Made by a program: the position numbers and the translations under genes
Notes under the pieces: generated by a model
The model's database searches: none
Seen by the model: the letters and a program-made list of their open reading frames with translations, nothing else
Told to the model about the DNA's origin: nothing
Assembly (NCBI GenBank): GCA_018970865.1
Contig: JAGWVN010000006.1
Coordinates: forward strand, 1-64,000
Length of the DNA stretch: 64,000 nt
Direction of reading: 5' to 3'
From: Betaproteobacteria bacterium
GTDB lineage: Bacteria > Pseudomonadota > Gammaproteobacteria > Burkholderiales > Burkholderiaceae_E
Shown here: positions 40,960 through 60,353 of the stretch, piece after piece
Position numbering within the stretch: position 1 is the stretch's first letter
Layout of the letters: each line of letters starts with the position of its first letter

Positions 40960-41190
40960 TCGATTGACTGCGGCGGGAGAGATCACCCGCGGCATCGCGG
41001 GTGGCGCCGAAGGTGTATCGCCCCGAAAACTCTCAGGCAAAAGGACTGCCGCAGTTTCGACTCTCTGGAGAGAAGGCGCGCGCCCGCCCCGGCGGTCGCG
41101 GCGGCCTCGCCGAAGGAAACAGGCAGATCGCGCCCGACCCGGGTTGCGGTCGCTGAATGTCTCAGGCAAACGGACAGAGGGGGTTCCCGC
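40960..41190 (+). ncRNA. Tandem glycine riboswitch upstream of gcvH-gcvP-gcvT
   Basis: Two glycine aptamers in series fill most of the 397-bp gap. Aptamer 1 has GGGAGAGA (40974-40981), the conserved GCCGAAGG (41016-41022 region), ACTCTCAGGCAAAAGGACTG and closing ACTCTCTGGAGAG; its P1 arms ACTGCGGC (40967-40974) and GCCGCAGT (41048-41055) pair perfectly. Aptamer 2 repeats GCCGAAGG (41109-41115), ends with ATGTCTCAGGCAAACGGACAG (41158-41176) and closes before 41190. Glycine binding usually turns on expression of the glycine cleavage genes. The gcvH start lies about 55 bp downstream; I did not resolve the expression platform. Confidence 0.93.
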
Positions 41191-41243
41191 ACCGGCGGCC
41201 ACCAGGCCGTCGCCACGCGCCCACGGCCGCCCAGGAGCCCCCC

Positions 41244-41630
41244 ATGGACAACCCCGCAGACCTCCGCTACACCGCCAGCCATGAATGGCTGCGCGACAAC
41301 GGCGACGGCACCGTCACCGTCGGCATCACCTTCCATGCCCAGGATGCGCTGGGCGAACTGGTCTATGTCGATCTGCCCCAGCCCGGCCGCCAGGTGAGCG
41401 CGGGCGAGGCCTGCGTGGTGGTCGAGTCCACCAAGGCAGCCTCCGATGTCTACGCGCCGGTCGACGGCGAGGTGCTCGAGGTCAATGCCGCGCTGGCCGA
41501 CGCGCCGCAGACCGTCAACGAGTCGCCCTTCGCCGAGGGCTGGCTCTTCCGCCTGCGGCCCAGCCAGCCTGGTCAGGCCGCCGGCCTGCTCAGCGCCGCC
41601 GACTACAGCGCCGGCCCCGGCGCGGCCTGA
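41244..41630 (+). CDS. gcvH: Glycine cleavage system H protein
   Basis: A 128-residue lipoyl carrier protein. It carries the aminomethyl group between GcvP and GcvT. The lipoylated Lys is in [15 protein letters not shown] near residue 65, and the closing [15 protein letters not shown] segment is typical. CCCAGGAG precedes the ATG at 41244, which follows the riboswitch. The C-terminal tail is slightly longer than usual (alanine/glycine-rich). gcvP follows after 11 bp, so the order here is H-P-T rather than the more usual T-H-P. Confidence 0.95.
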
Positions 41631-57576: not shown

Positions 57577-58638
57577 TCAGTCGGCCACTGCCAGCCGACG
57601 GTCGCGCACCGACTCGGCGAGATGCTCCAGGCAACCCAGCGTGTCTTCCCAGCCGATGCAGCCATCGGTGATGCTCTGGCCGTGGACGAGCGGCTTGCCC
57701 GCGACCAGATCCTGGCGTCCGGCCACCAGGTGGCTCTCGACCATCACCCCGAAGATCCGGGTGTCGCCGGCGGCGAGCTGCTCGCCGATGTTGCGAAGCA
57801 CCGGGATCTGGTTCTCGGGCTTCTTCTGACTGTTGCCGTGGCTGGCATCGATCATCAGCCGGCAGGCCATCGCCGCGGCGGCGGCCTCCTGGCAGGCGGC
57901 GTCGACCGCCGCGCTGTCGTAGTTGGGCGTCTTGCCGCCGCGCAGGATGACATGGCAGTCCTCGTTGCCATTGGTGGACACGATCGCCGAGTGTCCGCCC
58001 TTGGTCACCGACAGGAAGTGGTGCGGCTGCGAGGCGGCCTTGATGGCGTCGAAGGCGATGCGCAGGCTGCCGTCGGTGCCGTTCTTGAAGCCCACCGGGC
58101 AGCTCAGGCCGCTGGCGAGCTCGCGGTGCACCTGGGATTCGGTGGTGCGCGCGCCGATCGCGCCCCAGGCGATCAGGTCGGCCAGGTACTGCGGGGTGAT
58201 CATGTCGAGGAACTCCGAGCCGGCCGGCAGGCCGAGCTCATTGACCTTGAGCAGCAGCTCGCGGGCCAGGCGCAGACCGCGGTTGATCTGGAAGCTGTTG
58301 TCCAGGCCCGGATCGTTGATCAGGCCCTTCCAGCCGACGGTGGTGCGGGGCTTCTCGAAGTAGACCCGCATCACGATCTCGAGGTCGTCGCGCAGGCGCT
58401 CGCGGTGCGGCGCCAGCCGGTTGGCGTATTCCATGGCCGCATCCACATCGTGGATGGAGCAGGGCCCCACCACCACCAGCAGCCGGTCATCCATGCCGTG
58501 GAGGATGCGGTGGATCGCCTGACGGGCCTGGTAGGTGACCTCGGCGGCGCGCTCGGTGCAGGGCAGCTCGCGCAGCAGGTGGGAGGGCGGAGCGAGTTCC
58601 TTGATCTCGCGGATTCGGACATCGTCGGTGGTGGGCAT
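57577..58638 (-). CDS. aroG: 3-deoxy-7-phosphoheptulonate (DAHP) synthase, class I
   Basis: A 353-residue enzyme joining PEP and erythrose-4-phosphate, the first step of aromatic amino acid synthesis. DDRLLVVVGPCSIHDVDAAMEYA holds the PEP-binding loop, IVMRVYFEKPRTTVGWKGLINDP the phosphate-binding Arg/Lys region, and GARTTESQVHRELASGLSCPVGFKNGTDG is the hallmark; HGNSQKKPENQ carries a metal ligand. ATG at 58638 starts MPTTDDVRIREIKEL, the normal start of the Phe/Tyr-sensitive type; the frame upstream to 58830 is the leader region. The gene is preceded by a Phe/Tyr-rich leader peptide and a terminator-like hairpin. Confidence 0.96.
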   Translation of the reverse strand: MPTTDDVRIREIKELAPPSHLLRELPCTERAAEVTYQARQAIHRILHGMDDRLLVVVGPCSIHDVDAAMEYANRLAPHRERLRDDLEIVMRVYFEKPRTTVGWKGLINDPGLDNSFQINRGLRLARELLLKVNELGLPAGSEFLDMITPQYLADLIAWGAIGARTTESQVHRELASGLSCPVGFKNGTDGSLRIAFDAIKAASQPHHFLSVTKGGHSAIVSTNGNEDCHVILRGGKTPNYDSAAVDAACQEAAAAAMACRLMIDASHGNSQKKPENQIPVLRNIGEQLAAGDTRIFGVMVESHLVAGRQDLVAGKPLVHGQSITDGCIGWEDTLGCLEHLAESVRDRRLAVAD

Positions 58639-58704: not shown

Positions 58705-58738
58705 CAAAACAGAACCGCCGGCGCGAGGGCCGGCGGTT
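58705..58738 (-). terminator. Intrinsic terminator (attenuator) before aroG
   Basis: On the minus strand AACCGCCGGC pairs perfectly over 10 bp with GCCGGCGGTT around a 6-nt loop, followed by CTGTTTTG. It lies 67 bp before the aroG start and just after the leader peptide stop. Together these give the layout of a transcription attenuator. An identical copy of GCCGGCGGT lies inside the leader ORF (58801-58793) and could pair with the terminator's first arm instead. Confidence 0.75.
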
Positions 58739-58762
58739 GCTGGGTTGGGTTCGGAGGCCTGG

Positions 58763-58846
58763 CTACTGGCGCGCGGGCTCCGGAACTCTCCCACCGCCGG
58801 CGGGGAGACCGAAATAGAACGCAAACGCATAGACGATCAGGCGCAT
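58763..58846 (-). CDS. aroG leader peptide (Phe/Tyr-rich)
   Basis: A 27-residue ORF, start ATG at 58846 and TAG at 58763. It reads MRLIVYAFAFYFGLPAGG..., with three Phe and two Tyr within residues 6-12, exactly the pattern of a leader peptide sensing charged tRNA-Phe and tRNA-Tyr. A terminator hairpin follows 25 bp after the stop, and aroG comes next. AAGATG gives only a weak ribosome binding site. It lies 46 bp after the tldD stop. Ribosome stalling at these codons when Phe or Tyr is scarce would favour aroG expression (inference from the known principle of attenuation). Confidence 0.78.
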   Translation of the reverse strand: MRLIVYAFAFYFGLPAGGGRVPEPARQ

Positions 58847-58854
58847 GGCGTCAT

Positions 58855-58882
58855 CTTAAGCGGCCATCGCGCGGCCCGCAAG
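58855..58882 (-). promoter_or_regulatory. Candidate promoter of the aroG leader
   Basis: TTGCGG and TTAAGA on the minus strand are 16 bp apart, with the -10 hexamer only about 8 bp before the leader ATG. The leader would then be nearly leaderless; alternatively transcription comes from tldD. The assignment is tentative. Confidence 0.3.
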
Positions 58883-58892
58883 CCGCGCCGGC

Positions 58893-60353
58893 TCAGGCGG
58901 TTCCGCCCACGGTGAGGCCCTCGATGCGCAGCGTGGGCTGGCCCACGCCCACCGGCACGCTCTGGCCATCCTTGCCGCAGACGCCGACCCCGGAGTCGAG
59001 GCGCATGTCGTTGCCGATGAGCGTGACCCGGGTGAGCGCGTCGGGGCCGTTGCCGATCAGGGTGGCGCCCTTCACCGGGTACTGGATGCGACCCTTCTCG
59101 ACCCAGTAGGCCTCCGAGGCCGAGAACACGAACTTGCCGTTGGTGATGTCGACCTGGCCGCCGCCGAAGTTGGCGGCATAGATGCCGCGATCGATGGACG
59201 CGATGATCTCGGCCGGGTCGCGGTCGCCGGCCAGCATGCAGGTGTTGGTCATGCGCGGCATGGGCAGGTGGGCGAAGGACTCGCGCCGGCCGTTGCCGGT
59301 GACCGGCACCTTCATCAGGCGGGCATTGAGCGTGTCCTGCAGATAGCCGCGCAGGATGCCGTCCTCGATCAGCACATTGCGCTGGGTGGGGTTGCCTTCG
59401 TCGTCGATGTTCAGCGAGCCGCGGCGATCGCGGATGGTGCCGTCGTCGATCACGGTGACCCCTGGGGCGGCCACCCGCTGACCGAGGCGGCCGGCGAAGG
59501 CCGAGGAGCCCTTGCGGTTGAAGTCGCCCTCCAGGCCGTGCCCGATCGCCTCGTGCAGCAGCACGCCCGGCCAGCCCGGACCGAGCACCACCGGCATCAC
59601 GCCACCGGGCGCCGGGCGCGACTCGAGATTGACCAGCGCGGTGTCGACCGCCTCGCGGACATAGCGCTCGACGATGGCCTCGTCGAAATAGGCCAGGCCG
59701 AAGCGGCCGCCGCCGCCGCTGCTGCCCTGCTCGCGCCGGCCCTGGCTTTCGGCGATCACGGTGACCGAGAGCCGGATCAGCGGGCGCACATCGGCGGCGA
59801 TCACGCCGTCGGAGCGCGCGACCAGCACCAGATCATGCTCGGCAGCCAGCCCCGCCATGACCTGCACCACCCGGGGGTCGCGGGCGCGGGCCAGACGCTC
59901 CACGCGCTCTAGCAGCGCCACCTTGGCGGTGGCATCGAGCCCGGCGATGGGATCGGTGGCCGAGAAGAGGTCGCGGCCGGCGCGCGGCTGCAGGCTGCCC
60001 GCGACCTTCACCCTGCCGGCGCCGGCGCGGGCGATGCTGCGGGTGGCGCGCGCGGCCGACAGCAGCGCGCTGGCGTTGATCTCGTCGGAGTAGGCGAAGG
60101 CGGTCTTCTCGCCCGAGACCGCGCGCACGCCCACGCCCTGCTCGATGGAGAAGCTGCCCGACTTGACGATGCCCTCCTCGAGGCTCCAGCCCTCGCTGCG
60201 GGTGTACTGGAAGTAGAGGTCAGCATAGTCGACCTTGTGCTGGAAGACCTCGGCGAGCGCGCGGGCGAGGTCGCGCTCGTCGAGACCGGTGGGTTCGAGC
60301 AGGCGTTCGCGGGCGATGGCGAGGCGATCGATGCCCTGGTCGACGGGATTCAT
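58893..60353 (-). CDS. tldD: Metalloprotease TldD
   Basis: A 486-residue protein that works with TldE/PmbA as a zinc protease on unfolded or leader peptides (microcin and CcdA processing in E. coli). The zinc motif is HEAIGHGLEGD (about residue 258-268); SSGGGGRFGLAYFDE precedes it and MTNTCMLAGDRDPAEIIA and ASEAYWVEKGRIQYPVKGATLIGNGP follow in the usual order. ATG at 60353 gives a normal start. tldE/pmbA is not in the window. 22 bp from the nitrilase gene upstream. Confidence 0.95.
   Translation of the reverse strand: MNPVDQGIDRLAIARERLLEPTGLDERDLARALAEVFQHKVDYADLYFQYTRSEGWSLEEGIVKSGSFSIEQGVGVRAVSGEKTAFAYSDEINASALLSAARATRSIARAGAGRVKVAGSLQPRAGRDLFSATDPIAGLDATAKVALLERVERLARARDPRVVQVMAGLAAEHDLVLVARSDGVIAADVRPLIRLSVTVIAESQGRREQGSSGGGGRFGLAYFDEAIVERYVREAVDTALVNLESRPAPGGVMPVVLGPGWPGVLLHEAIGHGLEGDFNRKGSSAFAGRLGQRVAAPGVTVIDDGTIRDRRGSLNIDDEGNPTQRNVLIEDGILRGYLQDTLNARLMKVPVTGNGRRESFAHLPMPRMTNTCMLAGDRDPAEIIASIDRGIYAANFGGGQVDITNGKFVFSASEAYWVEKGRIQYPVKGATLIGNGPDALTRVTLIGNDMRLDSGVGVCGKDGQSVPVGVGQPTLRIEGLTVGGTA

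Follow-up and report, generated by a model that had tools for sequence, protein, structure and literature searches.

Escherichia coli pheA is preceded by the enteric Phe leader attenuator, which is built from a short Phe-rich peptide, a terminator before an aromatic pathway gene, and a competing antiterminator. The same parts stand between tldD and aroG in the window, the 64,000-nt stretch of DNA analyzed here; however, the gene, the order and the RNA sequence are different, and the aroG leader mixes codons for Phe, Tyr and, in some relatives, Trp. The uORFC-13-1 motif before aroF in Acholeplasma, known from 24 sequences, also combines a proposed leader ORF, for which at least one Phe codon is claimed, with a terminator before a DAHP synthase gene, but it comes from an unrelated phylum and is described with another RNA substructure (PMC8632094). 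A precedent of another kind is trpL of Sinorhizobium meliloti, whose transcript starts at the leader ATG (PMC7298713), as predicted for the aroG leader; S. meliloti, by contrast, is an alphaproteobacterium, its leader carries Trp codons and serves trpE(G), and the start site is known there but predicted here.

Is the aroG element already on record? In Rfam, the leader strand of the window has no match at gathering cutoffs or at an E-value of 10, the enteric Phe leader included, and 11 relatives have none at gathering cutoffs; the sole weak match in the window, RF02932, lies on the opposite strand (16 bits versus 49.4). There is no covariance match to a T-box riboswitch in the window or in the 11 relatives. 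An element at aroG in Burkholderiales is not described in the searchable literature, a scope outside which subscription papers and supplementary tables fall, and the passages searched in a premature-terminator survey (PMC2965389) and in a Proteobacteria regulon survey (PMC5343134) do not mention it. The mechanism is textbook; the element itself is new, barring an earlier listing outside the searchable literature, and is distinguished by its predicted leaderless start and its mixed aromatic codons.

Leader, terminator and alternative pairing

The first-pass annotation had described a 27-codon ORF with Y-A-F-A-F-Y-F at residues 6-12, a 10-bp GC stem behind it and then aroG. Translation of 58846-58763 reproduces these coordinates and residues exactly, the stem is found at 58738-58713, and the next gene, starting at 58638, encodes a DAHP synthase by its NCBIfam match (Table 1). 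The leader ORF starts 46 nt past tldD on the minus strand, and its aromatic run holds 3 Phe, 2 Tyr and no Trp. Among the 594 ORFs of 8-60 codons on both strands of the window, the leader alone has at least five Phe/Tyr within 8 residues, and of 5000 dinucleotide-shuffled versions of the 254-nt gap between tldD and aroG only one yields an ORF of this kind. The product of aroG, the sole copy found in the source genome, scores 571 bits against the NCBIfam AroG equivalog NF006723 (cutoff, 568), and its closest solved relatives include the Phe-sensitive AroG.

The terminator stem has 10 pairs, eight of them G-C, and is followed by CTGTTTTG, a weak T tract, short and starting with C, which is found likewise in the closest relative. 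One terminator was found versus 0.2 expected in shuffles; the folding energy (z = -0.7 for 231 nt and -2.0 for 151 nt) is by itself weak evidence in GC-rich DNA.

A second copy of the terminator arm, GCCGGCGGT, lies within the leader ORF at 58801-58793 and had been put forward as the competing antiterminator; it proves to be the conserved region 2 element, which covaries with region 3. RNA folding, suggested earlier as a way to score the two pairings, returns both of them in the window: as long as region 4 is untranscribed, the partner of region 3 is region 2, with a probability of 0.999; once region 4 exists, region 3 switches to it. But if the terminator wins at equilibrium even with a ribosome stalled, how could stalling control the outcome? 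Precisely because the terminator wins at equilibrium, the choice must be decided by kinetics, as it is in other attenuators. The antiterminator also wins without a ribosome while region 4 is not yet made.

Folding further suggests a short hairpin between regions 1 and 2, just 3' of the aromatic run, that may hide region 2 in the absence of a stalled ribosome. In the window, this hairpin has an energy of -13.1 kcal/mol (z -1.4); across loci, the mean z is only -0.73, the region 2 core finds a pairing partner upstream in most loci (39 of 49), and covariation does not support the helix, double changes not being in excess. The idea that a stronger 1:2 hairpin compensates for a distant stop codon is unsupported (Spearman -0.09, p 0.53).

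Table 1. Coordinates, in the window, of the features of the tldD-aroG region.
Feature	Position	Strand	Basis
tldD, metalloprotease TldD, upstream gene	58893..60353	-	NCBIfam PRK10735.1, 664.5 bits; ORF
Predicted -35 element TTGCGG	58876..58881	-	Highest-scoring sigma70 match within 75 nt upstream of leader
Predicted -10 element TAAGAT	58853..58858	-	17-nt spacer; ends 6 nt before leader ATG
Leader peptide ORF MRLIVYAFAFYFGLPAGGGRVPEPARQ	58763..58846	-	27 codons; translation, conservation, chance statistics
Aromatic control codons, residues 6-12 (Y A F A F Y F)	58811..58831	-	Translation, conservation
Region 1, 5' arm of short hairpin just 3' of aromatic codons (CTCCCCGCC)	58799..58807	-	Folding
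Region 2, antiterminator 5' arm GCCGGCGGTGGGAGAG, copy of terminator 3' arm	58786..58801	-	Alignment, covariation, folding
Region 2 extension, partner 58757-58748	58775..58785	-	Folding; own-versus-foreign partner test
Region 3 extension, approximate limits	58748..58757	-	Folding
Region 3, terminator 5' arm and antiterminator 3' arm AACCGCCGGC	58729..58738	-	Stem prediction, covariation, folding
Region 4, terminator 3' arm GCCGGCGGTT	58713..58722	-	Stem prediction, covariation, folding
T tract CTGTTTTG	58705..58712	-	Sequence directly 3' of stem
aroG, class I DAHP synthase	57577..58638	-	ORF; profile searches

Conservation and distribution among relatives

Among the best 80 aroG relatives in a species-level genome collection, Burkholderiales by their titles and with a Pseudomonadota genome, Lautropia and Quisquiliibacterium as the closest, a leader with a Phe/Tyr(/Trp) cluster stands at the same position in 77; examples are MRTSAYFYFGYFGFPAAGGTSQERARS (L001), MSAKFYFYFFWYLRPLADREG (Burkholderia) and MKFASPAFYFYFYGFLKPLAEEGTRAV (Bordetella). 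No leader was found at the other three loci of this sample, L014, L037 and L080. There, aroG lies close behind tldD or another gene, with neither leader nor terminator, a pattern of sequence which suggests that the attenuator was lost or replaced in some lineages. When Burkholderiales were sampled order-wide and other orders were added, 119 of 194 loci passed a filter for a leader plus a nearby terminator. Many of these loci are close relatives, so non-redundant sets were used: the counts below are drawn from 49-57 non-redundant loci, and alignment A1 holds 57 non-redundant sequences. The spread is patchy, with at least 12 Burkholderiales families and one family of another order represented, and many other aroG homologues in the order-wide Burkholderiales sample have no such leader upstream. 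At L204 (G026), the element is retained with a different upstream gene. Many genomes gain a leader gene whose small size puts it below the reach of normal gene calling.

A covariance model of the element gives the aroG leader 62.5 bits in the source genome. Other genes under the same element were considered and rejected: among the weaker model matches, those opened proved to be ordinary terminators, coding DNA or a 5S-rRNA-like stretch. Two aroG leaders like MNAARASFYFWYYFPKPLAEEGLRSP, at L224 and L231 (G362, G232), belong to the family outside Burkholderiales and are near the Bordetella-type leader (KPLAEEG), a likeness of sequence that perhaps reflects gene transfer.

The first-pass annotation had reasoned that, in related Burkholderiales, conserved aromatic codons in an otherwise variable peptide and compensatory changes in the stems would speak for an attenuator. 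Aligning the tldD-aroG gap bears out both expectations: the aromatic codons are kept in a peptide that otherwise varies, and covariation is seen in the terminator as well as in the antiterminator core. The aromatic cluster is kept as amino acids, with run length and order free to change; directly 3' of it, the GGCGG of region 2 is kept as nucleotides. Relative to the leader, GGCGG is in one frame at 32 of 49 non-redundant loci, in another at 11 and in the third at 6, so it is conserved as RNA, not as peptide; the peptide tails differ by clade (PLAE, AGG, RRRD). This is the pattern expected of a putative leader peptide overlapping an RNA element, not of a functional small protein.

In alignment A1, the terminator is 96.3% paired, with 26 double-change cells; the antiterminator core is 79.4% paired, versus at most 49.5% when slid, with 22 double-change cells, and none of 500 shuffles is as high on percent paired, double-change cells or covariation score. 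For the key antiterminator pair, 20 sequences have U-A and 16 have C-G. When its two bases (T-A/C-G in DNA) were followed along a tree of 96 aroG genes, both had switched on one and the same branch four times, with the pair kept each time, and the chance of at least four such coincidences is about 0.0015. The outer helix, formed by the extensions of regions 2 and 3, varies in sequence between clades, and its own partner is better than a foreign one (mean z -0.74, sem 0.16, n = 49). RNAalifold on the full alignment returns the terminator only and no alternative helix; the alternative helices were counted separately.

Proposed mechanism and rival explanations

The locus thus combines (i) a leader ORF in which, by sequence and conservation, codons for the end product are clustered; (ii) by sequence, an intrinsic terminator between the leader and the first structural gene; (iii) a mutually exclusive antiterminator that uses the terminator 5' arm; and (iv) a gene with a role in the synthesis of the leader-coded amino acids, the aroG product catalyzing the first step of the Phe/Tyr pathway. 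The attenuator proposed upstream of aroG in the first-pass annotation is supported by the leader and terminator, by the alternative pairing, and by conservation and covariation; we put the probability that aroG is under a trp/phe-type, ribosome-mediated transcription attenuator at roughly 0.92. In the proposed course of events, transcription would begin at or beside the leader ATG, as predicted, and the leader would be translated by a ribosome trailing RNA polymerase. With charged tRNA-Phe (probably also tRNA-Tyr) plentiful, the ribosome would reach the stop codon and prevent region 2 or its extension from pairing with region 3; region 3, left free, would pair with region 4, and the resulting terminator would turn aroG off. 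Under shortage of Phe or Tyr, it would instead stall on codons 6-12, the ribosome covering region 1 and leaving region 2 free; pairing of regions 2 and 3 would then precede the synthesis of region 4, barring the terminator and letting the polymerase enter aroG. Such a model offers a testable mode of control for the enzyme with which aromatic amino acid synthesis begins, in a large group of bacteria that has soil, plant-associated and clinical members.

Could the stem, which sits between tldD and aroG, merely end tldD transcription, with the Phe/Tyr-rich ORF a chance frame? A few loci at which aroG lies close behind tldD without a leader (L037, L080) fit this idea, but it is hardly credible in view of the leader statistics (1 of 594 ORFs, 1 of 5000 shuffles), the presence of the leader in 77 of 80 loci, the covariation of region 2 with region 3, and the persistence of the element behind another upstream gene (L204, G026). 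Leader peptides can also have extra roles, as illustrated by S. meliloti peTrpL, which acts in trans (PMC7298713); the nascent peptide might arrest the ribosome in response to free Phe/Tyr, as in TnaC, or the leader might be a small protein. Both proposals are very improbable: only the aromatic run is kept, its length and order vary, the tails change from clade to clade, and the same RNA element is read in all three frames. The lack of conservation in the tails makes a functional small protein unlikely, and Phe-induced arrest would work in the wrong sense, since a ribosome arrested within that run would switch aroG on at Phe excess.

A narrower question, which leaves attenuation itself in place, is whether Phe alone is sensed, with Tyr codons (and Trp codons in relatives) tolerated as aromatic neighbors. 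Phe does predominate, with 246 codons versus 104 for Tyr and 33 for Trp in 57 non-redundant aromatic runs, and the enzyme resembles the Phe-sensitive AroG. Yet Tyr is present in 54 of the 57 leaders and Trp in 30, and the window's own run has Tyr at two of its five aromatic codons; sensing of Phe only is rather unlikely, and the codons point to a leader that plausibly senses both Phe and Tyr. Burkholderia and Paraburkholderia leaders (L017, L023 and others) contain a Trp codon (FYFYFFWYL), and by its codons one such leader may register the supply of Phe, Tyr and Trp together.

Predicted leaderless start and possible sensor diversity

Upstream of the leader, a sigma70-like site (TTGCGG, 17 nt, TAAGAT) stands out against shuffles with a z of 3.8, and the TTGC of its -35 element is kept in relatives. 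With the usual spacing, transcription is predicted to start at the leader ATG or no more than a few bases from it; the leader would therefore be read from a leaderless mRNA, and the leader mRNA in the window's clade is probably leaderless. At 21 of 57 non-redundant loci, a comparable -10 element ends 6-9 nt before the leader start; at many loci of Burkholderia and Oxalobacteraceae, a promoter-like site lies 22-39 nt upstream instead.

Taken together, these features raise the prospect that the window's clade uses a leaderless-mRNA attenuator in which one leader reads several aromatic amino acids jointly, that related clades have a longer 5' UTR and Trp codons, and that the family displays the evolution of both sensor specificity and initiation mode; this broader picture is tentative, and we rate it at somewhat short of even odds. 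The natural series of leaders, with their varied Phe/Tyr/Trp mixes and modes of initiation, could be used to study how attenuator specificity changes. If the leaderless reading is true, the terminated RNA would be a small leaderless mRNA and might act in trans, as in S. meliloti.

Elsewhere in the window, a glycine riboswitch (RF00504, 62 bits) lies at 40964-41058 on the plus strand; it is an ordinary one, followed by an ORF that resembles gcvH (41157-41630) and a frame that resembles gcvP and runs through 44593, both named by the look of their translations.
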